Notes under the pieces: generated by a model
What the model was told of the DNA's origin: nothing
Databases searched by the model: none
Seen by the model: only the letters and a program-made list of their open reading frames with translations
Position numbers and translations under genes: made by a program
Shown: positions 7,600 to 28,421 of the stretch, in pieces
Layout: the number at the start of each line of letters is the position of its first letter
How positions within the stretch are numbered: the stretch's first letter is position 1
From: Eubacterium sp.
GTDB taxonomy: Bacteria > Bacillota > Clostridia > Oscillospirales > Acutalibacteraceae
DNA: 35,279 nucleotides
Direction: 5' to 3'
Assembly: GCA_022511205.1 (NCBI GenBank)
Contig: JAFLRY010000019.1
Coordinates: forward strand, 1 to 35,279

Positions 7600-9021
7600 A
7601 TGCTTGAAAAAATAAAGGAAATTCCAAAGGAAATAATAAACCATTGGAAAACGCCGCCTGAGGGGAAGTATATACCGTATAAGGAGTTCGCTTCATACAG
7701 TATCGGCGGCATCGGCGTTAATACGATAAATTCGCTTTTCGGATACGTTGCTCTCAACGCCAACTGCCTGCTGATCGGCTCTGCATACGGCATTCAGCCA
7801 ACGCATCTTGCGTGGCTGAATATCATAATGGGCATTATCAATCTTATCAAAGCTCCGTTTATCAGTATGCTTATTGATAACACAAATTCTAAATACGGAA
7901 AATTCCGCCCGTATCTTTTGTACACAGGTGTGCCTACTGCGGTTCTGCTTTGCTTTATGGCATTCATTCCAAATGATATCAACTACGTGGCAAAGGTTGC
8001 CGTTATAGGCGTTACGTACGCGTGTTTGATGGTTTTTCAGGCGCTCTACGCTCAGGCGTTTACAAGCCTTGCGCAGGTGCTTACGCCCAACGGCGAGGAG
8101 CGGACCGGTCTGCTTTCGGTCAGTATGTTTATTTACAGCCTTGGCCCGTCAATCGTGAATATGCTGCTTCCGATTTTTGCAACGCTCACAGGCGGTATGA
8201 CGGAGTTTAAAACCTACAGGGTTTTCTTCCCGATATTCTCAATAATCGGCATAGCGTTAAGTATAATGACCTTTAAAGGCACAGAGGAAAAAATCGTTGT
8301 TTCCAAAGATTACGTTGCCAAGGTTAAATTCAGCGAGGGCTTTAAGCAGGTGGCAAAGAATAAATACTTCTGGCTGATAAACGCTTATTCGATTCTCGGC
8401 GCGCTGAAATACGGAATAGGCTCGATTCTCGGCTGGTATTGCATTTATCAGATACAGAGCGACGCAATGCTGGGCGTTATGAATACCGTTATCGGCACGG
8501 CTTCAGTGCCTCTCATGCTTCTCGCGCCGTTGCTTGCGAAAAAGCTTGGTAAAAGAAACGTTATTATCTGGACGAATTTGATCCGCGCGATTCTTTGCGT
8601 CGTTATGTTTTTCACGATGAATAATACGGTAGTATTCTTCGTTTTCCTGTATCTTGCCACGGTTACGATGGGAGGCGACAGCGTTGTTACAACCTCGATG
8701 ACCGCTGAAATATTTGACTATCAGCAGTGGAAAACAGGCGTTAGATTAGAGGGCTTTATAACACAATTCGGCGCAATGCTCACAACGTTTGTCGGTATGT
8801 TTACCGGGTTTATCGTTCCGTATTTTTACGAACTTTACGGGCTGAAAAATGATTACACGGTGCTTTATGATCCGGCCGTGAGAACCCCGATATTCAATAT
8901 TTTGATCATAACAACGATCATCAGCTGTGTGCTTTGCGTTATTCCAATGTTCTTCTATAATTTAGGGGAAAAGGATCATCAAAAAATTATCGAAGAATTG
9001 AAAGAAAGAGTAAACGAATAA
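7600..9021 (+). CDS. GPH-family sugar:cation symporter (MFS)
   Basis: 473 residues with about 12 membrane segments. The glycoside-pentoside-hexuronide signature is present: after the first two segments comes DNTNSKYGKFRPY near residue 90, the GPH form of the D-x-T-x-x-x-x-G-K-x-R-P loop. GPH carriers import disaccharides, pentosides or hexuronides together with Na+ or H+. The start is fixed by AGGAG eight bases upstream. It is divergent from the beta-helix lipoprotein, so it may import the sugars that enzyme releases. The precise sugar cannot be read from sequence. It ends just before a bidirectional terminator. Confidence 0.88.
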   Translation: MLEKIKEIPKEIINHWKTPPEGKYIPYKEFASYSIGGIGVNTINSLFGYVALNANCLLIGSAYGIQPTHLAWLNIIMGIINLIKAPFISMLIDNTNSKYGKFRPYLLYTGVPTAVLLCFMAFIPNDINYVAKVAVIGVTYACLMVFQALYAQAFTSLAQVLTPNGEERTGLLSVSMFIYSLGPSIVNMLLPIFATLTGGMTEFKTYRVFFPIFSIIGIALSIMTFKGTEEKIVVSKDYVAKVKFSEGFKQVAKNKYFWLINAYSILGALKYGIGSILGWYCIYQIQSDAMLGVMNTVIGTASVPLMLLAPLLAKKLGKRNVIIWTNLIRAILCVVMFFTMNNTVVFFVFLYLATVTMGGDSVVTTSMTAEIFDYQQWKTGVRLEGFITQFGAMLTTFVGMFTGFIVPYFYELYGLKNDYTVLYDPAVRTPIFNILIITTIISCVLCVIPMFFYNLGEKDHQKIIEELKERVNE

Positions 9022-9028
9022 TAAATAG

Positions 9029-9066
9029 AAAAGAGATCAAAACCGCGTGGCTTTGATCTCTTTTTT
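9029..9066. terminator. Bidirectional intrinsic terminator
   Basis: AAAGAGATCAAA (9030-9041) pairs with TTTGATCTCTTT (9052-9063), with a short GC-containing loop and T run to 9066. The A run on the left side gives a U tract on the minus strand as well. It separates the symporter from the convergent surface-fibre cluster and can end both. Confidence 0.88.
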
Positions 9067-9081
9067 ATGCCGGATTTGCAA

Positions 9082-9687
9082 TCAGTCTGCCTGGCGTAGC
9101 CAAGCTTTGAACGTGAGCGAAAACTCCAGATCGTTACCATCCTTATCTTTGCCAACGTAATACTCGCTGACATAGAGCTTATCGTCCTTCAAAATATGGA
9201 TCTCACTGTATGGCGTTCCCGCGTCAAAAATACCCTTATATTTGTATATGTTTTTGTCCTCGTCGAATAATTCCCATGTATTTGTCAGCTCGTAAGTGAC
9301 CGTTTCAGGGAAGAAATCAGATTCGGTAACCTGTACAAACAGCTCATAATCGACCTCGGACTTGTCAAGCTTAAGCTCGATAATCGGATCCTTGGCGATA
9401 TCAACACCGGGGATAACCTTTCTATATGTGTACGCCGTAGTCTTTATACTCTCATTGAGGACGTAAATGCCGTTTTCAAGCTTCGGTTCGTGTTCGTAAA
9501 TATTGATCTCGCCACCGGCGGCAACTCGGGCGGAATCGGTATAGGAATGCTCAATTACATATTTCGCATACAGATTGCTGACCATACAAGTGGAAAACAT
9601 CGTAAGCGTAAGAATAATGCCAACAGTCCAAAACAATATGTTATGAATAGTAAACCGCGACTTTTTTTCGTATTTATTCTTTTCCAC
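9082..9687 (-). CDS. SipW-dependent TasA/camelysin-like surface protein (third substrate)
   Basis: About 201 residues. A hydrophobic segment near 17-38 ends in NLYAKYVIE, the AKYV-type cleavage site of SipW-processed proteins, followed by DSARVAAGGE. The same AKYV-E...DSARVA block is found in the TasA-like protein at 11389-12516. The rest is beta-rich and acidic, consistent with the TasA/camelysin (M73-like) beta-sandwich. No sorting signal is seen. It is the last gene of the minus-strand cluster, directly after a SipW-type peptidase. The start is non-ATG: GTG at 9687 with GGCGGTG upstream is preferred; the in-frame GTG at 9696 sits too close to AAAGG. Confidence 0.72.
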   Translation of the reverse strand: MEKNKYEKKSRFTIHNILFWTVGIILTLTMFSTCMVSNLYAKYVIEHSYTDSARVAAGGEINIYEHEPKLENGIYVLNESIKTTAYTYRKVIPGVDIAKDPIIELKLDKSEVDYELFVQVTESDFFPETVTYELTNTWELFDEDKNIYKYKGIFDAGTPYSEIHILKDDKLYVSEYYVGKDKDGNDLEFSLTFKAWLRQAD

Positions 9688-9745
9688 TGTCGGCACCGCC
9701 TTTCAATTTATCATCTGTTTTAGCTTCTCTTTTAGGAGAAGGCAG

Positions 9746-10300
9746 TTATTCGCCTTTAAGGCGTTTGATCTCTTCTATGATTTTCTCTTTATCTTCATAA
9801 GCTTTTTTGCGCTCTTTCATATGGGGAAGCTCAAAAAGAACTATCATAGCCGCAATTATAAGTATAAAGCCAACCGGGGTTTTCAAAAAACGTATCAGCG
9901 CTCCTATAAATGGGATATGGAATACGGCTTTTCCTTTTATATCAGATACAGAAATCGGACTGTCATTAACCTCGTTGGCGTCTCCTTTCGTTACTATCTC
10001 GTCGCCGTCAACGGAAACTATCTTGTGGATAACAAGCATACTCTCATCCTGATACACAACGATATCGTCTACTCCGTAGCCGCTCTGTTCATGAACGACC
10101 ACCAAGTCATTCACGGAGAGCGTTGGCTCCATACTGCCGGAAAGCACCACGGAAAAGCCCCAGCCAAAGGGCATAGGCATAGCGTTTCCCGCCAAGGTTT
10201 GAGCATTCCAGTTATACAGTCTTATGCCAATTACAAGGCTGATTACTGCCAAAAGGAGAATTCGCCCGATGGTTTTCAATTTTCTTTTCGTTTCACTCAT
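9746..10300 (-). CDS. sipW: SipW-type signal peptidase I (second copy)
   Basis: 184 residues from the ATG at 10300, one base after the stop of the anchored surface protein, implying translational coupling. A first membrane segment lies at about 12-27. The catalytic region has SGSMEP with Ser56, IHKI with His92 in place of the bacterial Lys, and GDAN with Asp107; this Ser-His-Asp set is the archaeal/ER-type (SipW) form. A second membrane segment (about 135-155) is followed by a highly charged tail. It probably removes the signal of the adjacent AKYV/AKFV proteins. It differs clearly from the other SipW in this cluster, so it is not a recent duplicate. Confidence 0.85.
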   Translation of the reverse strand: MSETKRKLKTIGRILLLAVISLVIGIRLYNWNAQTLAGNAMPMPFGWGFSVVLSGSMEPTLSVNDLVVVHEQSGYGVDDIVVYQDESMLVIHKIVSVDGDEIVTKGDANEVNDSPISVSDIKGKAVFHIPFIGALIRFLKTPVGFILIIAAMIVLFELPHMKERKKAYEDKEKIIEEIKRLKGE

Positions 10301-10301
10301 T

Positions 10302-11180
10302 TTATTCAGCCTGTTTCTTTTCCTTACGGTCTGATTTAAAGAGGGCAAATATCATAATGCAAAGTCCCGCAAAGGAGCCTGCGCTCAGCAGGCAAAGGAG
10401 TATGAGCTGTGAATCGTCTCCCGTATGCGGCGGATCAACAAGACCTGAGTTGGGATCGTCCGGATCATCGTCATGCACTGCAACGGTGCGGATAATAATG
10501 TGCAGTTCCATATCCTGACCAACGGCAAGATCGCCAAGCATGGTGTCGTAAGCATCGTCGCCGCGCTCAAAGGGCCATTCCCACTCAAGATTGAAAACGG
10601 CATATCTGCCCGCGCCAAGCTCTGCGCTGTAATTTACAGTGTTGAGCTCCATCACATCAACTTTATTATCGGGCGAGCCCAAGAGATATTTGTTCGTATG
10701 ATCCCATACGCGTGCCTCAACGGGAAGCCAAAGGTCTGTTCCCGTAACGTAGGCTTCCATTGTCATAGTATAATCCAGCGCTACGTCGCCCGTGTTGGCG
10801 AGCGTGAACTGGTAAATGTTGGATGTTCCGGGGGCGATAAGCTTATCATCGTTACCCTCAGGGCCTATAACGGTGATTTTTCCTGTTTCATCATAGAAAA
10901 GCTTGAAAATCTCCTCCTCGGCCTCCATATGGAATTCGGGGTTATGCTTTTCATCATCGCTTATATACTCGGTCTGTCCGCTCCCACTGTCAGATGAAGG
11001 GGCGTTTGAATCGGTATCCGCGTTTTCAGTAAGCGAATGAACGTTTACGAATTTTGCCGAGGTATAGGGGATAACTCTGCCGAAAAGGAGCGAAACGGAA
11101 ACCGTTACGCATAAAACTAAAATAAGGATGAGCGCAATGAGATTGCCGGACGATTTCTTTTTGTTGCGTTCGGTATTCAT
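10302..11180 (-). CDS. Sortase-anchored surface protein with SipW-like N-terminus and PPHTG sorting signal
   Basis: 292 residues. The N-terminal hydrophobic segment (about 13-34) leads to TSAKFVN at 41-46, similar to the AKYV SipW cleavage sites of its neighbours. A Ser/Asp-rich linker follows (about 50-80). The core shares LIAPGT and LEWEWPFE with the TasA-like protein (LVAPGT, FTWEWRFE), so they are likely paralogues. The C-terminus is a cell-wall sorting signal: PPHTG at 250-254, hydrophobic stretch at about 259-282, basic tail. PPxTG is accepted by class B sortases such as that of Clostridioides difficile, and a srtB lies in this cluster. AGGAGG eight bases upstream supports the start. 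Confidence 0.8.
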   Translation of the reverse strand: MNTERNKKKSSGNLIALILILVLCVTVSVSLLFGRVIPYTSAKFVNVHSLTENADTDSNAPSSDSGSGQTEYISDDEKHNPEFHMEAEEEIFKLFYDETGKITVIGPEGNDDKLIAPGTSNIYQFTLANTGDVALDYTMTMEAYVTGTDLWLPVEARVWDHTNKYLLGSPDNKVDVMELNTVNYSAELGAGRYAVFNLEWEWPFERGDDAYDTMLGDLAVGQDMELHIIIRTVAVHDDDPDDPNSGLVDPPHTGDDSQLILLCLLSAGSFAGLCIMIFALFKSDRKEKKQAE

Positions 11181-11234
11181 TCATGCTCCCTCCTTTTCAG
11201 CGTTGATTTTTTTACATTTGCGTTTATATTATGC

Positions 11235-11302
11235 TTCGGTGTTTTAGAAAACCCGAAAGAAAATATTTTAAATTATCTTTCGAACTGTCGAAAGCACCGA
11301 AA
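11235..11302 (-). other. Structured intergenic RNA candidate before the anchored protein gene
   Basis: TTCGGTG (11235-11241) pairs with CACCGAA (11296-11302) to close a domain. Inside lie a 7-base-pair hairpin CTTTCGA/TCGAAAG (11277-11283 with 11288-11294) and short GTTTT/AAAAC and GAAAG/CTTTC pairings, giving a possible junction on the minus-strand transcript. It sits between the TasA-like gene and the anchored-protein gene. It matches no riboswitch class I recognise. Confidence 0.4.
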
Positions 11303-11305
11303 CCT

Positions 11306-11333
11306 GCGCGGCCGCAGCCACAAGCAGCCGCGC
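11306..11333 (-). terminator. GC-rich hairpin after the TasA-like gene (attenuator or processing site)
   Basis: GCGCGGC (11306-11312) pairs perfectly with GCCGCGC (11327-11333). It stands out in A/T-rich surroundings, 56 bases after the stop of the TasA-like gene. No T run follows on the minus strand, so it is not a classic terminator; it may slow polymerase or protect the upstream message from exonucleases, giving more TasA-like protein than the downstream products. Confidence 0.4.
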
Positions 11334-11388
11334 AAGCCTTTGGTTAATTAGTTTTTAGCTTCAATTAAGAATTTATGTATTCTCTTAA

Positions 11389-12516
11389 TTAGTCAACCTG
11401 AGTTACGCTGATGGTAACGTCAATGCTAATGTCAGTGCTGTAAGAGCTATTCGCAAGAGTATAATTCTGAGGAAGCTCGGTAAAGGTGGTCTGCTGGCCG
11501 TCTACATATTCCTTAACGTTGCCGGCAGCGATATCACCGAGAAGAGTATCCTTCTTATCCCTGAGAGCCTTGGCAGCTGCCTTACCCTCTGCAGTTGCAT
11601 AAGTATCTTTCACAGCGTTTGCCTGAATGAAAGCTTTAGCAGCGTTGATATCGGCCTGAGTATGACCGGGAGTTTCGCTTGCAGTCTCGTCCTTAAGAGC
11701 ATTCTGAGCATCCCAGTAAGTTTCAGCAGCGGTCTTAGCCTTTGCGTTTACAACATTGGTATCCTCTTCAAATCTCCACTCCCAAGTAAAGGTGAGCGTG
11801 CCGATACCGCCGGCAGCAACATTGGCGAGATCGGTGTTCGCGTCAACGAAGATTCCGTTATCGCCGTTGATAGCGTTAAGTACCGCGTCAATATCGCTGA
11901 GAGAGCCTGTAACCTTTTTGTCAGTACGAGTACCCGGAATGCTTGCAAGTGCCGCGTCGATCTGAGTTCCAAGCTTTGCAATGAGATCGCCTTCGATCGT
12001 GAATACGATAGGATGGTATTCAGCTTCAGCATCGAAAGTGTCTACCGCAGAGGTGGTCATATCCGGCAGAGCGGCGTTGTTCTTAAGGAATATATCCTTA
12101 ACATCGGCAACATCGATCTTTACGTTAACGTCAACCTCAGGTGTACCGGTAACGCTTATCGTGAATTTCTTGTCGCCGTTATTCGTACCGGGAGCAACGA
12201 GATTGTCTGTGTTTGAAGATTCAACAGAAAGTAATGTAAGGTCTTTCGGGGTTCCGGTAAGATTTTCATCTAATGTTGAACCGCCGGGAGTGTTGCCCTT
12301 GCCTTCGTTAGGAGCGGAGGGATTTACTTTGAAGTAGGTCTTGTCAAATAAGGTACCGGTTGCGGTAACTTCAACGCCGAACTTCGCAACACGGGCAGAA
12401 TCCTGAACGTAACCTTCAGTTACATACTTCGCGAAAGTTCCGCTGATGATGCTTGTTGAGAGAAGTACGGCAACTAAAAGTACGCTTGCAACTCTCATCA
12501 TTTTGTTCTTTTTCAT
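11389..12516 (-). CDS. TasA/camelysin-like SipW-dependent fibre protein
   Basis: 375 residues from the ATG at 12516, chosen because AAGGAG lies seven to nine bases upstream; an in-frame ATG further up has no such site. The signal segment (about 8-27) ends in GTFAKYVTE, the SipW-type site, followed by DSARVAKFG. The mature part is beta-rich with LVAPGT near 106 and FTWEWRFEE near 243, then an Ala-rich, probably helical insert (about 248-335) that the smaller paralogue lacks. The end returns to beta strands (ISIDVTISVTQVD). TasA relatives form extracellular fibres in biofilms. It lacks a sorting signal, and the gene follows sipW and a long structured leader. Role as main fibre subunit is inferred. 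Confidence 0.8.
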   Translation of the reverse strand: MKKNKMMRVASVLLVAVLLSTSIISGTFAKYVTEGYVQDSARVAKFGVEVTATGTLFDKTYFKVNPSAPNEGKGNTPGGSTLDENLTGTPKDLTLLSVESSNTDNLVAPGTNNGDKKFTISVTGTPEVDVNVKIDVADVKDIFLKNNAALPDMTTSAVDTFDAEAEYHPIVFTIEGDLIAKLGTQIDAALASIPGTRTDKKVTGSLSDIDAVLNAINGDNGIFVDANTDLANVAAGGIGTLTFTWEWRFEEDTNVVNAKAKTAAETYWDAQNALKDETASETPGHTQADINAAKAFIQANAVKDTYATAEGKAAAKALRDKKDTLLGDIAAGNVKEYVDGQQTTFTELPQNYTLANSSYSTDISIDVTISVTQVD

Positions 12517-12557
12517 GAGTTTTTCTCCTTTCATGGTTTGTGCCTTTCGGCTGTTAA

Positions 12558-12630
12558 ATTCTTCCCCCATAGGGCAAGCCCCCCGGGAGAATTTATATAT
12601 TCAACCCCGTGTGGCTTCCGGGGGAAGAAT
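12558..12630 (-). promoter_or_regulatory. Long structured leader element upstream of the TasA-like gene
   Basis: ATTCTTCCCCC (12558-12568) and GGGGGAAGAAT (12620-12630) form a perfect 11-base-pair stem. Within it AAGCC/GGCTT and a CGGG...GAAT/ATTC...CCCG helix stack to give one long hairpin with an A/U tip. After it, on the minus strand, comes a small GCC-GAAA-GGC hairpin and then the AAGGAG of the TasA-like gene. It lies between sipW and its substrate gene. It does not match c-di-GMP, SAM or other riboswitch consensus that I can recall. Confidence 0.55.
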
Positions 12631-12641
12631 AGCGTAAATGC

Positions 12642-12691
12642 TCACTGCGTTTGCAGTGAATAGTGAAGAGGTTAGGGTCTGCTTCGCAGAC
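12642..12691. repeat. Pair of short perfect hairpins, possible dispersed intergenic repeat
   Basis: TCACTGC/GCAGTGA (12642-12648 with 12653-12659) and GTCTGC/GCAGAC (12677-12682 with 12686-12691) sit side by side just after the sipW stop codon. Between them is AGTGAATAGTG (12655-12665), whose complement CACTATTCACT recurs at 33805-33815. The pattern is that of a small palindromic repeat scattered in intergenic DNA. Confidence 0.45.
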
Positions 12692-12707
12692 GATCATAAT
12701 ATTTTTA

Positions 12708-13355
12708 TTACTGATCGGAGCTTTTCTGTTCCTCCGCTTTCGCGGCCTTCAGCGCCTCAAGCTCTGCCAGCAGTGCTTCTGTATCCTGTTTGTTCATCTT
12801 TTCATAGCGCTTGCGTCTGAAAAGATCCCAGCCGATGAGCAGAATGAGCGGAAGTACTACACAGATGATAAGACCTGCCGTAGTCTGCATAAACATCGCA
12901 ATGTTGCCCGCGCCGCCGATCCTCGCAACGTAAATACCTACGAGTTTCTCTTCAGATACAGGCAAGCGATCCGCCGTGTCGTTGGCGTCACCCTGAGTGC
13001 GGAAGTAGATCGTTCCTTCTTCATCGTACAGCTCAATAACTCTATGGGTAAGGATGCTGGTTCCGTTTCCGTCCGGATCAAAGAAAGCGATAACGTCTCC
13101 AACTCGAACGTCTGCTCCGTCGATCTGTTCAACGACGATGAGGTCTCCGCTCAGTATCTCCGGCTCCATTGATCCGGTAAGAACGATGAGGGGCGCGTAT
13201 CCGCCGATCTTCGGAACCTCTTCCGTATTGGTGTAGCTCTTAACGATCAAAGTGAGATTGACTATAAGGATCGGGATAAGAATAATGCAAAGAACGATTC
13301 CTATAGCCGTCATGATCTTGTGATTGACTGTTGTTTTTTCCTTGGCCTTTGACAT
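12708..13355 (-). CDS. sipW: SipW-type signal peptidase I (first copy)
   Basis: 215 residues. Membrane segment at about 15-38, then TGSMEP with Ser62, LTHRV with His104 and GDAN with Asp123: the Ser-His-Asp arrangement of SipW/ER-type peptidases rather than the Ser-Lys pair of ordinary bacterial LepB. A second membrane segment (about 150-172) is followed by a charged, coiled tail of some 40 residues. SipW is needed in Bacillus to process TasA, and the next gene here encodes a TasA-like protein with the matching signal. AGGAGG ten bases before the ATG supports the start. It probably begins a transcript separate from srtB, as a terminator lies between them. Confidence 0.9.
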   Translation of the reverse strand: MSKAKEKTTVNHKIMTAIGIVLCIILIPILIVNLTLIVKSYTNTEEVPKIGGYAPLIVLTGSMEPEILSGDLIVVEQIDGADVRVGDVIAFFDPDGNGTSILTHRVIELYDEEGTIYFRTQGDANDTADRLPVSEEKLVGIYVARIGGAGNIAMFMQTTAGLIICVVLPLILLIGWDLFRRKRYEKMNKQDTEALLAELEALKAAKAEEQKSSDQ

Positions 13356-13594
13356 TTAAATAGAGCCTCCTCAGCAGATTATCATAAAAAAGCGAAAACT
13401 TCACCTATATAATATTTTAATTATATTAACATACCAAATTTTAAAAATCAATACGAAATTTTATTTTTATTTTACATAAAATATCCAAAATGTAAAAATT
13501 TCGGGATTTTTCTGTTTCTTTTATAACTTATAGTTTAAAAAAATAGCATAAATAATAGTAAAATGCAAGCTTTTTTTATAATGTGAATTTTTGG
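13356..13594. other. A/T-rich intergenic region upstream of sipW
   Basis: About 240 bases with runs of A and T and no convincing ORF. It holds the sipW ribosome site and the promoter at 13423-13451. Such A+T content upstream of a promoter could bend DNA or act as an UP element or binding area for global regulators; no specific site can be named. Confidence 0.5.
13423..13451 (-). promoter_or_regulatory. Promoter of the sipW/TasA-like gene cluster
   Basis: On the minus strand TTGATT (13451-13446), 17-base spacer, TAATAT (13428-13423) with a TG one base before the -10 box (extended -10). It gives a leader of about 60 bases before the sipW ATG. Other A/T-rich choices exist nearby, so the exact site is uncertain. 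Confidence 0.45.
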
Positions 13595-13639
13595 ATAGAA
13601 AAAGAAAGGGATGACAGACTGTTGAGTCTATCATCCCTT
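13595..13639 (-). terminator. Intrinsic terminator of srtB
   Basis: On the minus strand a 15-base stem (13625-13639 with 13606-13620, one mismatch) around a 4-base loop is followed by TTCTTTTTC. It ends srtB transcription seven bases after its stop codon, so srtB and the sipW cluster are separate transcripts. Confidence 0.85.
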
Positions 13640-13645
13640 ATTTTA

Positions 13646-14419
13646 TCATTGCGTGGAAGAGAGCGGGGTCAGCTTCCCGAATACTATGTATCTTGCGTTG
13701 TCAAATTCATAAGAGCAGGTGGAGAGCATAATGATATGATCACTACCCGTAACGTCTACGTCAGATTTAAAGGTGGAGTTTGCCGTCAGCTTCTGTAAAA
13801 AAGCTTCAAATTCTTCCGTATTTCCGATCTCCGTGCGGTAAATATCAGAATCAGCGTCGGCAGTGAAGCCCGCAAACAGGTCTATTTTGTAATTCGTCTC
13901 CGGCGTTAAATAGTATAAAACCGGGTGTTCTTCAAAATACTTTTGCTCTTTATAGTTCACCAGAGTGCCGAACATTGAGGCGTTTTTCATATTGTGGCCG
14001 TAGATGATATGATTTTGCCCTGTTCCAACGGCGGGGCAGCGGTAATCGGCAAACAGCGTTCCCGTTTTGAGGTATTCGCCGTGCAGATCACGTCGCAGAT
14101 AATAATCGTTGTCATCAGCCTGCACCACGGGATAATGTATCGGTGTGTTTTCGCAATAGAGCCAGCCGATAATATCTGAATTTTCCCGCATAAGCGAGCC
14201 GAAATCAACACTGATAGGGGCTGTTTCCTCAGGCGTAACCTCCTCGTTTGGCGCTTGCTCCGTTTCGTGGGGCTTTTCGATAACGAAGCGGTTTTGCAGA
14301 TCGTCGTAGGCTTTATCTGCTTTTTGATATCCGTAAAGGGTGATCGCCACTCCGGCAGACGAGACGACGAATACAAGCGCAAACACGATACATATAACAA
14401 GATATATTTTCCTTTTCAA
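13646..14419 (-). CDS. srtB: Class B sortase
   Basis: 257 residues. An N-terminal membrane anchor at about 5-28 is followed by a linker rich in Glu/Pro and the sortase barrel from about 70. Catalytic residues are all present: His142 in IIYGHNM, Cys235 in MLSTCSYEF and Arg243 in NARYIVFGKL. The helix before the barrel and the spacing of these residues fit class B. Class B enzymes in clostridia can join PPxTG or NPxTx proteins to peptidoglycan, and the PPHTG protein three genes downstream is the only sorting-signal protein in the window. The start codon is TTG at 14419, with GAGG upstream; the nearby ATG is in another frame. Confidence 0.92.
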   Translation of the reverse strand: MKRKIYLVICIVFALVFVVSSAGVAITLYGYQKADKAYDDLQNRFVIEKPHETEQAPNEEVTPEETAPISVDFGSLMRENSDIIGWLYCENTPIHYPVVQADDNDYYLRRDLHGEYLKTGTLFADYRCPAVGTGQNHIIYGHNMKNASMFGTLVNYKEQKYFEEHPVLYYLTPETNYKIDLFAGFTADADSDIYRTEIGNTEEFEAFLQKLTANSTFKSDVDVTGSDHIIMLSTCSYEFDNARYIVFGKLTPLSSTQ

Positions 14420-14463: not shown

Positions 14464-14492
14464 ATTATAGAAAAAAACTCGGGATGTGTCAA
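14464..14492 (-). promoter_or_regulatory. Perfect consensus promoter for srtB
   Basis: TTGACA (14492-14487), 17-base spacer, TATAAT (14469-14464) on the minus strand, exact in both boxes. It points at the TTG start at 14419, giving a leader of about 40 bases. The strong promoter paired with a weak start codon suggests that output is limited at translation. Confidence 0.75.
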
Positions 14493-14563
14493 TCGTATAT
14501 GTTTATCTCAAACGTTTCAATATTTCATCGTGAATGAAAGCGGCAAAAATATAAGCCTTTCTA

Positions 14564-14593
14564 TTGAAAAGAATATTGAAAATGTGATACAAT
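14564..14593 (+). promoter_or_regulatory. Candidate promoter of the orphan gene at 14641
   Basis: TTGAAA (14564-14569), 18-base spacer, TACAAT (14588-14593). Its place inside the longer open frame is an argument for starting the protein at 14641 instead of 14530. Confidence 0.4.
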
Positions 14594-14640
14594 TTTTGAA
14601 AACAGACAGATTTCGTCAAAAAATAACGGAGAAAAATGAT

Positions 14641-15240
14641 ATGAAAATCATAATAAAATTTGAAGACGTTGATATTTCATCGATCGTAAAGACTTATCAA
14701 AAGGACAAACAGGAGGAGCTTGAAGGCTCGTCACGCTTCGGCAGCCTGAAAAAGCAGCTTTTCGGCGCGGGAATGGCGTTTGCGGAATTTGCTGCGAAGG
14801 AATTGTTGGAAAAAAAGCCTGAAGTAATTGAGCGCACCGCCGAAAGCATGGCCAAAAACTATTTGGAAAAGCACAGACTAAAGCTCACGCTTGATAAAAT
14901 AATACTGCTGACAGATGATTCGAGCACTGATCTCAGCGGTGTGGCAGCTGAAATCTCAGATGTGGACTATTCTCAGATTTTAACTTCTGTCAGCCCGAAG
15001 CTTGTAAAAAGGCTTAAAAAAACGTACAAAAACAGCGCTTTGCTGAAAATATTAAATGTTATCACCTCGGATGATGAAACGTTGAAAAACATAATGTCCG
15101 CCATAGACGATGAAAAGAAAGAACAGCTTTTGCAGATATTCGTTACGGAGTATAACGACGTGATTTGCAACGAGATCAATGGGTTAGCGCAGAAGAGAAA
15201 TATTGCTGCGAAGGTCAACGAAATCATCATTGAAGCCTGA
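14641..15240 (+). CDS. Protein of unknown function (199 residues, helical, charged)
   Basis: I do not recognise this protein. From the ATG at 14641 (GGAG nine bases upstream) it has 199 residues; the frame is open back to 14530, but that extension has no ribosome site. There is no signal peptide. A short, moderately hydrophobic Gly/Ala patch near residues 40-55 (FGAGMAFAEFAAKELL) could touch a membrane; the rest is Lys/Glu-rich and predicted helical. It stands alone between divergent srtB and malQ with its own promoter, so context does not assign a role. Length, codon use similar to neighbours and the ribosome site support a real gene. Confidence 0.6.
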   Translation: MKIIIKFEDVDISSIVKTYQKDKQEELEGSSRFGSLKKQLFGAGMAFAEFAAKELLEKKPEVIERTAESMAKNYLEKHRLKLTLDKIILLTDDSSTDLSGVAAEISDVDYSQILTSVSPKLVKRLKKTYKNSALLKILNVITSDDETLKNIMSAIDDEKKEQLLQIFVTEYNDVICNEINGLAQKRNIAAKVNEIIIEA

Positions 15241-25663: not shown

Positions 25664-26419
25664 ATGATAAGCGAAACGAAACAAATTTTAGAAGCCGTTA
25701 AAAGCGGCGCTCTATCGGTGGATGAAGCGTTGCTGAAGCTGAAGACTGAACCCTTTGAGGACATCGGCTTTGCGAAGGTGGATCTTCATCGCAAAACGCG
25801 GCAGGGTGTACCCGAGGTGATCTACGGAGCCGGCAAGACGGCTCAGCAGATGATCGGCATTATCGATGCGATGAGGAAAAACGGCGAGGAACGTATTCTG
25901 ATCACCCGCCTTTCTCACGATGCCGCCGAGGAAATCAGACAAAAGCACGATATCACTTACTACCCGGAAGCGAAAATAGGGCTTGCGGGCGGTTTCCCCG
26001 TTCCGAACGGGATCGGAAAAATCGTTGTGGCAACAGGCGGAACGAGCGACATTCCCGTTGCCGAGGAAGCGGCTCTTACGGCTGAGGCGCTCGGTAATGA
26101 AGTCATACGGCTTTATGACGTGGGCGTTGCCGGTGTTCATCGGCTTTTATCCCATAAAGAGGAAATTATGAGCGCAAGCGTTATTATAGCTATTGCAGGT
26201 ATGGAGGGAGCGCTTGCCAGCGTTATCGGCGGGCTTGCGGATTGCCCCGTGATCGCCGTTCCCACCAGTGTGGGCTACGGAGCGGCATTTGAGGGCTTAT
26301 CGGCTTTGCTCTCTATGCTCAACTCCTGCGCCAGCGGAATATCCGTTGTTAATATTGATAACGGCTTTGGCGCGGGCTATCTTGCAAGTATGATAAACCA
26401 TATGGAGGCAAAAAAATGA
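25664..26419 (+). CDS. larB: LarB, pyridinium carboxylase/hydrolase of nickel-pincer nucleotide synthesis
   Basis: 251 residues. LarB carboxylates nicotinic acid adenine dinucleotide at C5 and releases AMP, giving P2CMN, the first step to the nickel-pincer nucleotide cofactor of lactate racemase. The N-terminal helical part holds GFAKVDLHRKTRQGVPEVIYG near 35-55; the C-terminal PurE-like domain holds VATGGTSDIPVAEEA near 122-136. The family's reactive cysteine is present as Cys222 in NSCASG. The stop overlaps the larC start by four bases, so expression is coupled. GGAG precedes the ATG. Confidence 0.95.
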   Translation: MISETKQILEAVKSGALSVDEALLKLKTEPFEDIGFAKVDLHRKTRQGVPEVIYGAGKTAQQMIGIIDAMRKNGEERILITRLSHDAAEEIRQKHDITYYPEAKIGLAGGFPVPNGIGKIVVATGGTSDIPVAEEAALTAEALGNEVIRLYDVGVAGVHRLLSHKEEIMSASVIIAIAGMEGALASVIGGLADCPVIAVPTSVGYGAAFEGLSALLSMLNSCASGISVVNIDNGFGAGYLASMINHMEAKK

Positions 26420-27594
26420 AAGCATTATATTTAGATTGCTCCATGGGCGCGGCAGGGGATATGCTCACCGCCGCTTTGTTGGAGCTTCTGCCTGATCCCG
26501 ATGAGTTTATCGCAAGATTAAATGCGCTTTCCATTCCCGGTGTGCGGTTCAGGAAAGAGACCGTAACGAAATGCGGTATTAGCGGAACGCATATTTCCGT
26601 CACCGTTCACGGCGGGGAAGAAAGCGAAGATATGCGCGAACATAACCGCGAGCATCACCATAGCAGTATGCGTGAGATAGAGCATATCGTATCGCATTTG
26701 AATTTACCCGAAAAGGTGGAGAAGGATGTTCTCGCCGTTTACGGGCTCATCACTCAGGCGGAAAGCCACGTTCACGGAGTGCCTGTAACGGATATACATT
26801 TCCATGAGGTGGGTACTATGGACGCGATCGCGGACGTCACCGCGGTGTGTCTGCTGATGAATGAGCTGGCGCCTGATGAAGTGGTCGTTTCTCCCGTTCA
26901 CGTGGGGAGCGGTCAGGTCAAATGCGCCCACGGAATTCTATCCGTCCCCGCGCCTGCCACGGCTTATATTTTGAAGGACGTTCCGATTTACGGCGGCAGT
27001 ATCAAAGGAGAGCTTTGTACTCCAACCGGCGCGGCGCTTTTGAAGCATTTCGCCATGCGTTTCGGCGATATGCCTGTAATGAAAACGAGCGCCATTGGCT
27101 ATGGAATGGGCAAAAAGGATTTTGAAGCGGCAAACTGTGTTCGCGCGATGCTGGGCGAGACGAATGACAAAAGTGATACAGTTTTGGAGCTTTCCTGCAA
27201 CGTTGACGATATGACTGCCGAGGCGATCGCCTTTGCAACGGAGCGTTTGTTTGAAGGCGGCGCTAACGAGGTCTATACAGTGCCTATCGGTATGAAAAAA
27301 TCGCGCCCCGGAACGCTTATCCGAGTTATGTGTAAGGAGCAGGACAGGGAGAAATTTATTGGTCTGCTTTTCAGGCACACCACCACTATCGGCGTGCGGG
27401 AAGCTGTTACACACCGCTACGTTCTTGACAGACGTATAGAGACCTTGAACACCCCCTACGGCGAGGTTCGCCGCAAGGTATCCTCCGGCTACGGAGTTAG
27501 CCGCGCGAAATATGAATACGACGATCTTTCACGTATTGCAAAAGAGCGGAATATCAGTCTTGATGACGTAAAAAAGGATATTGAAAGCTTATAG
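26416..27594 (+). CDS. larC: LarC, nickel insertion enzyme (CTP-dependent cyclometallase)
   Basis: 392 residues. LarC inserts Ni into the dithio-carrier nucleotide with CTP hydrolysis to finish the cofactor. The opening LYLDCSMGAAGDM is diagnostic. A His-rich loop (EHNREHHHSS at about 75-84) probably gathers nickel. The N- and C-terminal halves are one continuous frame, unlike in Lactiplantibacillus, where a programmed frameshift joins LarC1 and LarC2. Motifs such as HFHEVGTMDAIADV near 128-141, GELCTPTGAALLKH near 199 and the KKSRPGTLIRV stretch near 293 are intact. It is linked to larB by ATGA overlap and to larE by 14 bases. Confidence 0.95.
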   Translation: MKALYLDCSMGAAGDMLTAALLELLPDPDEFIARLNALSIPGVRFRKETVTKCGISGTHISVTVHGGEESEDMREHNREHHHSSMREIEHIVSHLNLPEKVEKDVLAVYGLITQAESHVHGVPVTDIHFHEVGTMDAIADVTAVCLLMNELAPDEVVVSPVHVGSGQVKCAHGILSVPAPATAYILKDVPIYGGSIKGELCTPTGAALLKHFAMRFGDMPVMKTSAIGYGMGKKDFEAANCVRAMLGETNDKSDTVLELSCNVDDMTAEAIAFATERLFEGGANEVYTVPIGMKKSRPGTLIRVMCKEQDREKFIGLLFRHTTTIGVREAVTHRYVLDRRIETLNTPYGEVRRKVSSGYGVSRAKYEYDDLSRIAKERNISLDDVKKDIESL

Positions 27595-27608
27595 GAGAGA
27601 ACCTTTTT

Positions 27609-28421
27609 ATGGATATAATACACGAAAAAAAGCAGCATTTGGAAAACCATCTCAGGGAGCTCGGCAGCGTTGCCGTTGCCTTTTCCTCGGGCGTTGATTC
27701 AACCTTTCTTCTTAAGGTGGCACACGATGTTTTGGGCGAAAAGGCGATCGCCGTGACCGCGCGCTCCTGCTCTTTTCCCGCGAGAGAGCTGAATGAGGCA
27801 ACGGCTTTTTGCGCGGAAAACGGAATAAAGCATATAATCGTGGATTCGGAGGAACTGGCTATTGACGGCTTCAGTCAGAATCCCAAAAACCGATGCTATC
27901 TTTGTAAAAAAGAACTGTTTACGAAGATAAAAAGCATTGCAAAGGAGCATGGAATTTCCCATGTTGCGGAGGGTTCAAATACGGATGATAGCGGCGATTA
28001 CCGCCCCGGACTCATGGCGGTGGCGGAGCTGGAAGTCAAAAGTCCGCTGAGAGAGGCAAAGCTCTCAAAGGCGGAGATACGCACGCTCTCCAAGGAAATG
28101 GGCTTGCCCACATGGGATAAGCAGTCCTTCGCATGCCTGTCCTCACGGTTCGTTTACGGAGAAACGATCACCGAGGAAAAGCTTTCTATGGTTGACAAAG
28201 CGGAGCAAAGATTGCTTGATTTGGGCTTTCATCAGGTGCGCGTTCGAATCCACGGAAATATCGCAAGAATCGAGATAGACCGATCCGAATTTGAAAAGAT
28301 ACTTCAGCCCGAGATCGCGCAGGAACTCAACGGATATCTCCGTGAGCTGGGCTTCCTTTACGTTACCTTAGACCTCGGCGGTTATCAAATGGGAAGCATG
28401 AACAAAACCTTGGATTTGTAA
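27609..28421 (+). CDS. larE: LarE, sulfur transferase of nickel-pincer nucleotide synthesis
   Basis: 270 residues. LarE activates the carboxylate with ATP and installs the sulfurs of the cofactor. The PP-loop SSGVDSTFL lies at 26-34. Three cysteines sit at the key places: Cys96 and Cys99 (NRCYLCKK) and Cys176 (SFACLSSR). In the L. plantarum type only the last is kept and is sacrificed to dehydroalanine; the three-cysteine pattern fits the other type, in which a [4Fe-4S] cluster is thought to carry the sulfur, so the enzyme could act more than once. EGSNTDDSGDYRPG at 121-134 completes the nucleotide site. It is third in the lar operon. Confidence 0.95.
   Translation: MDIIHEKKQHLENHLRELGSVAVAFSSGVDSTFLLKVAHDVLGEKAIAVTARSCSFPARELNEATAFCAENGIKHIIVDSEELAIDGFSQNPKNRCYLCKKELFTKIKSIAKEHGISHVAEGSNTDDSGDYRPGLMAVAELEVKSPLREAKLSKAEIRTLSKEMGLPTWDKQSFACLSSRFVYGETITEEKLSMVDKAEQRLLDLGFHQVRVRIHGNIARIEIDRSEFEKILQPEIAQELNGYLRELGFLYVTLDLGGYQMGSMNKTLDL

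Follow-up and report, generated by a model that had tools for sequence, protein, structure and literature searches.

A sortase-tagged TasA-like protein between two SipW-type peptidases: a candidate wall-anchored fibre cassette of Clostridia

To our knowledge, the tapA-sipW-tasA locus of Bacillus subtilis has one SipW peptidase and no sortase. TasA fibres grow as each subunit donates its N-terminal strand to its neighbour, and TapA is an accessory protein believed to initiate the fibre and to hold it in place (PMC9674648). In B. cereus, CapP, TasA and CalY together build a filament of mixed composition, one of whose members sits at the cell surface (PMC13082335), while in Clostridium perfringens srtB lies 5' of sipW-bsaABCRSD, and sipW-bsaA is transcribed alone and also with readthrough (PMC7395162). 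Here we describe a six-gene cassette in a 35,279-nucleotide stretch of Eubacterium sp. DNA (GCA_022511205.1, contig JAFLRY010000019.1, positions 1-35,279; hereafter the window), whose genome bin (G000) has a completeness of 97.3 and a contamination of 1.84. With a probability of roughly 0.58, it encodes a wall-anchored TasA-type fibre system, in which the cleavage of the substrates, their anchoring and polymerisation, the placing of end pieces and adhesion are inferred.

Frames and translations place all six genes on the minus strand at 9082-14419, in agreement with the sequence-only reading made earlier of this DNA. That reading sized the system by these six genes; the set now appears larger, since another contig (C14) of the same genome encodes a giant secreted protein together with TasT, which is the fourth of the small proteins. 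The coding features are as follows.

13646..14419, minus strand: srtB, class B sortase, 257 amino acids (aa), TIGR03064 match
12708..13355, minus strand: SipW1, SipW-type signal peptidase, 215 aa, TIGR02228 at 97.6 bits, SipW1 group of the tree
11389..12516, minus strand: TasA1, TasA-like putative major subunit, 375 aa, from its SipW-type signal end FAKY...DSARVA, alignment and model
10302..11180, minus strand: ANCH, TasA-like anchor protein with a PPHTG sorting signal, 292 aa
10419..10433, minus strand: PPHTG sorting motif within ANCH, from sequence reading
9746..10300, minus strand: SipW2, the other SipW-type signal peptidase, 184 aa when read from its ATG, TIGR02228 at 77.9 bits, tree group
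9082..9687, minus strand: TasS, small TasA-like protein, 201 aa, from alignment and kinship with the TasA1 profile
Contig C14:22911-28966 (L207:10912-16967): giant secreted protein of 1,803 aa, then TasT

As in C. perfringens, srtB comes first in the cassette, then sipW, then a putative fibre protein whose dependence on SipW is suggested here by its signal, and further secreted proteins; the C. perfringens operon has one SipW, an internal two-component system and, by its authors' prediction, no LPXTG-like motif in BsaA (PMC7395162). Going by that published description, the window cassette is set apart by its two SipWs, its PPHTG-ended TasA-like protein, its lack of two-component genes (no BsaRS-like gene lies between srtB and TasS in the window) and the location of the giant protein and TasT elsewhere. 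It resembles the B. subtilis locus in placing a SipW-type peptidase beside TasA-like substrates and in having a putative donor segment downstream of the signal peptide, and its proposed anchor protein would parallel TapA. Several SipW substrates are also found in the CapP-TasA-CalY system, which is described as sortase-independent with one sipW (PMC13082335). Furthermore, a class B sortase with PPXTG-type signals recalls Clostridioides difficile, where SrtB substrates carry (S/P)PXTG and SrtB is a single sortase for several surface proteins (PMC4155245); unlike in C. difficile, the SrtB of the window type is a second SrtB beside a common one.

These genes recur together in relatives. Named bacterial genomes, searched with six aligned ANCH proteins, yielded 42 loci, of which the titles name Clostridia except for L086 (uncultured bacterium), and the 38 with ANCH above 90 bits were kept (L086 to L089, at 44 to 47 bits, were dropped). 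Genes were mapped on all frames of at least 60 residues, with profiles to which the window and part of these loci had contributed, and whose scores are therefore not independent. TasA1 is the immediate upstream neighbour of ANCH in 36/38 loci; the contig ends before it in the other two (L065, L067). On the downstream side, SipW2 is the immediate neighbour in 37/38, with L084 as the exception. SipW1 stands upstream of TasA1 in 33 of the 38; L058, L065, L067 and L081 have too little flank, and L084 has no SipW1, its apparent genome (G042, contig C37) carrying SipW1-SipW2-SrtB on another contig (L036). ANCH and SipW2 overlap in 31/37 loci, with starts as the script chose them. Because of the near-constant neighbours on either side of ANCH, the order SipW1-TasA1-anchor-SipW2 is more than chance. 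A comparison of gene order across Clostridia had been named beforehand as one that could overturn the sequence-only reading, and it instead shows co-occurrence in a fixed order.

The distribution of the cassette is patchy. Within the genus, 12/80 genomes have a SipW-type match and seven carry the cassette, either whole or as a clear portion (G000, G011, G025, G042, G091, G092, G094). In a class-wide sample of 393 genomes at least 90% complete, 19 have ANCH matches; 12 of these are to the sorting-signal region only and that of G494 is short and weak, while the ANCH body is matched in six (G000, G066, G276, G310 and, weakly, G141 and G468).

Both peptidases are SipW-type by TIGR02228 (cut-off 51.85), SipW1 scoring 97.6 bits and SipW2 77.9 in the frame read from an upstream start. 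Against the Bacillus SipW equivalog NF046067 (cut-off 190 bits) they reach 98.1 and 69.1, and by this model they are not Bacillus SipW orthologues. In a tree of 27 sources, for which the bootstrap was not settled and seven further SipW rows went uncounted, a single branch separates SipW1 from SipW2 (95/79, all 200 bootstrap trees), and the window SipW1 groups with 26 other SipW1 proteins. The pair is therefore likely old and not a local duplication, since the two groups fall apart at one branch across all 27 sources, and the divergence noted earlier for the second SipW extends to two groups kept side by side. A second kind of SipW locus also occurs in the genus (L038, L040, L042), with several SipW-signal proteins and an SPxTG-ended protein of 106-149 aa. 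In G025, a 1,147-aa protein with a SipW-type signal and numerous FDTSNVT-type repeats (L033:6804-10247) is encoded after the cassette, and elsewhere on the same contig lies a near copy of the start of that protein (L044:8186-9783), along with a small TasA-like protein and SipW2.

The three substrates are related to one another, as had been proposed: profile comparison gives 99.5% (E 2e-22) for ANCH and TasA1, and 98.6% (E 9e-16) for TasA1 and TasS, the latter partly via the common signal-peptide region. None has a credible Pfam or NCBIfam match. Unlike the B. subtilis control, which does match, they are unmatched by the Pfam TasA/camelysin model PF12389 (M73), as is the rest of their own genome; PF12389 is also absent from the 13 families matched by 30 TasA1 members and from the 25 shown of 27 families matched by 34 anchors. 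Sequence searches of PDB chains with the three substrate profiles and TasA1 gave nothing credible, and Foldseek searches with the ANCH and TasA1 models gave no match at E 0.001.

TasA is the top structural match of the predicted ANCH core, but it is tied with GOLD domains. For TasA1, most rows ranked above TasA match a helical insert, which weakens the fold test. This insert is a hairpin at residues ~253-330 (window 11527-11760), between the WEWRFE and DTLLGD motifs, with a similar one in L053 and none in most of 30 aligned relatives. The TasA1 list also includes 9ikk (TLP-1b) and 9ikj (TLP-1a), names for which no paper was found in the openly licensed literature. As such, the structure searches only hint at a fold kinship of the substrates with TasA.

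The link to a sortase comes from the end of ANCH and from the distribution of one type of SrtB. The window SrtB scores 204.7 bits against TIGR03064 (cut-off 153.75), which makes it a class B sortase, and its translation shows the His motif YGHNM and the Cys/Arg motif STCSYEFDNARY. Near its C-terminus, ANCH has PPHTG with a 38-residue tail that runs through a hydrophobic stretch to charged residues, the pattern of a sortase B substrate. Among the 38 anchors, 31 end in xPxT[GS] with a hydrophobic tail (29 TG, 2 TS; 16 are PPxTG), two have the motif with a longer tail (L064, L083), and L077, L078, L080, L081 and L082 are without it. TIGR03063 (SrtB target) matches 7/34 anchor members, at best 2.6e-7, and TIGR01167 (LPXTG) 10/34; neither matches the window's own ANCH at E 0.1.

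The presence of SrtB anywhere in a genome was set aside as evidence of linkage. Some SrtB is found in 37 of the 39 cassette genomes searched (35 from the 42 loci and 4 others), yet also in 76/80 genomes of the genus, and is therefore uninformative. The window-type SrtB, by contrast, tracks the cassette within the genus. With the window SrtB as query, six cassette genomes score at least 223 bits and every other place listed at most 124.7; this type is present in 6/7 cassette genomes, the exception being G025, versus 0/73 others (Fisher 2e-8, kinship ignored). In an SrtB tree of 57 rows, drawn mainly from the best-scoring places and not from every SrtB found, a 13-row clade (98/94) consists of cassette-genome SrtBs only, with those of other cassette genomes (e.g., G025, G276, G526, G527, G533) outside it. 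In several cassette genomes, SrtB domains also occur within long open frames of ~480-900 residues (L139, L143, L147, L148, L150 and others). The window's genome has, in addition, a separate locus with two sortases and LPQTG/LPRTG proteins that resembles an ordinary sortase pilus (contig C28:2969-7714, L048).

In the proposed mechanism, SipW1 would cleave TasA1, the putative abundant subunit, and SipW2, whose gene directly follows that of ANCH, would process ANCH and/or TasS. The dedicated SrtB would then cut ANCH at PPHTG and join it to peptidoglycan, and TasA1 would polymerise on the anchored ANCH, its post-signal segment (KY...DSARVA) probably being inserted into the next subunit, as in TasA. 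TasS, TasT and the giant secreted protein may cap or decorate the fibre. A signal end of the form [FYLI][ASL][KR][YF], 5 to 14 residues and Ax[VI][AE] is found in 41/42 TasA1-type proteins, the window's included, and in 0/42 ANCH proteins; it occurs in 14/28 TasS and, in a slightly looser form, in 16/20 further TasA-like proteins (groups counted with the window and four added loci). If ANCH shares the fold, its lack of a candidate donor segment would limit it to an end piece. This is the central step of the model, and it would suit a base that SrtB fixes to the wall.

Transcription signals suggest how the cassette may be divided, and the following sites were read from the sequence.

14464..14492, minus strand: promoter-like site 5' of srtB, sigma-70-type TTGACA-17-TATAAT, 12/12 matches, pattern only
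13606..13639, minus strand: intrinsic terminator 3' of srtB, 15-pair stem and T tract, -25.4 kcal/mol, z -6.7
11233..11303, minus strand: long hairpin in the TasA1-ANCH interval, from RNA folding, a possible partial terminator
9029..9064, minus strand: intrinsic terminator 3' of TasS, 16-pair stem, with 9000-9090 folding at -23.9 kcal/mol, z -4.1

The srtB promoter-like site is the best of 27 such sites in the scanned stretch (shuffles gave a mean of 11.6). Because srtB has this site and its own terminator, it is probably a transcription unit separate from the other cassette genes. The fold between TasA1 and the anchor gene (11181-11330) has a modest z of -2.3 at -41.4 kcal/mol, with 4/200 shuffles equally good; by analogy with the readthrough published for sipW-bsaA, the hairpin might raise TasA1 over the later genes. 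For TasA1, the start at 12516 is more likely than 12570, though the frame is open to 12570, because the 375-aa form aligns with relatives. SipW2 more likely starts at the ATG at 10300, 1 base past the ANCH stop. Divergently from srtB, a 236-aa protein without a credible family match is encoded at 14530-15240 on the plus strand.

The main alternative is a matrix fibre that is secreted like BsaA. TasA1 would then leave the cell and assemble by itself in the medium, with SrtB a mere neighbour and ANCH in a minor role. Several observations favour it and weigh against anchoring. Besides the window, SrtB lies within the locus in just 4/38 anchor loci (L052, L053, L054, L056), and in the window it may be transcribed on its own. 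C. perfringens has the same srtB-sipW-fibre order, and there deletion of srtB left BsaA polymer and pellicle unchanged, with BsaA polymers mainly extracellular (PMC7395162). The null deletion fits a sortase that ties fibres and does not build them, by analogy, and fits no role equally well. A neighbour-only SrtB is argued against by the sorting signal on ANCH in 31/38 loci and by the confinement of the window-type SrtB, within the genus, to cassette genomes. On balance, we regard the released fibre as improbable.

The anchored-fibre reading gains further parts from the relatives. In many of them the gene after TasS encodes a giant secreted protein, mostly of ~1,400 to 1,850 aa, with the small TasT after or before it. 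L052 and L053 share the window's order SrtB-SipW1-TasA1-ANCH-SipW2-TasS, and in each the contig breaks off within the gene that comes next, whose product shares 59% (L052) and 62% (L053) identity with the first part of the 1,803-aa protein on C14 of the window's genome; the TasT on C14 is 49% identical to that of L050. Both the window cassette and the giant-TasT pair lie inside contigs with other genes around, and this genome seems to hold the whole set in two places, assuming a correct bin. In other genomes SrtB may lie apart from the cassette, as in L197 (same genome as L055), which reads giant-TasT-SrtB, and in G011 and G094, where SrtB sits after a giant protein matching no other large protein compared.

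The bodies of the giants differ, and a C-terminal module of ~115 residues is found in 18/56 large proteins searched; of the 18 matches, 6 built the model, L200 is weak and one locus (L046/L091) was counted twice. Several giants of cassettes gave no match to the module, among them L061, L077, L079, L090 and the truncated L070, L073, L080 and L118. A Listeria-Bacteroides repeat domain is above cut-off in 5/5 full giants scanned, one of which has a SpaA match below cut-off, and the giants of the window genome, G011 and G094 match no Pfam family. In L082 (11862-16601) the giant begins with a fused TasS-like domain (106.9 bits), and the ANCH of L084 (same protein in L045) is 855 aa long with added repeats. 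Because of such fusions, the sequences suggest that these proteins are physical partners.

These same large proteins lend themselves to a non-fibre explanation, in which TasA-fold proteins are displayed singly, to act as receptors or to hold the giant as an adhesin, or form a spore-surface layer. A giant accompanies many cassettes, some anchors have large added parts (L084, and the longer, motif-less L078 and L080), and the polymerisation of these proteins is itself putative. Conversely, the segment at the place of the TasA donor strand is kept in 41/42 TasA1-type proteins, and other SipW substrates (BsaA, TasA, CalY) are reported as polymers (PMC7395162, PMC13082335, PMC9674648), which makes a non-fibre role quite unlikely. 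A covalent pilus polymerised by SrtB would fit a dedicated SrtB that tracks the cassette, and class B-like sortases are said to polymerise some streptococcal pili, but it is very unlikely given a sorting signal on only one of three substrates: TasA1, which ends VTQVD, and TasS, which is without a C-terminal membrane segment, do not look like major subunits of a sortase pilus.

A bolder extension of the anchored-fibre reading, which we advance tentatively, is an usherless donor-strand pilus of Gram-positive gut bacteria. A groove-only TasA-fold base would be welded to the wall by SrtB, and TasA1 would form the shaft, base and shaft each being processed by their own SipW. TasS or TasT would bear the giant as an adhesin with a variable body and the recurring C-terminal module of ~115 residues.

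Elsewhere in the window are cobalt uptake genes at 319-2874 (CbiM, CbiQ and an ATPase) and, at 25664-28421, an AIR-carboxylase/nickel-insertion/PP-loop gene set, whose make-up points to LarB-LarC-LarE.

To summarize, the first interpretation as an anchored fibre is partly supported, and the cassette is best filed among the SipW/TasA-type fibre systems, as a variant. Its suggested novelty is narrower than supposed, since srtB beside sipW-bsaA is published for C. perfringens (PMC7395162), but searches of the openly licensed literature brought up no account of a TasA-like cassette with two SipWs and a sortase tag, and none of the scanned members of the substrate families matches a named Pfam family. 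In Bacillus, tethering of the TasA fibre to the cell is still ascribed to TapA as a presumed role (PMC9674648). A TasA-like relative with a sorting signal, together with a sortase that tracks the cassette in the genus, makes the question of fibre tethering testable. If the anchored-fibre reading is true, a patchy set of Clostridia, with a ruminant gut site named in the titles of at least 12/42 loci, would have an unrecognised wall-anchored fibre system, and the giant protein may be its adhesin.

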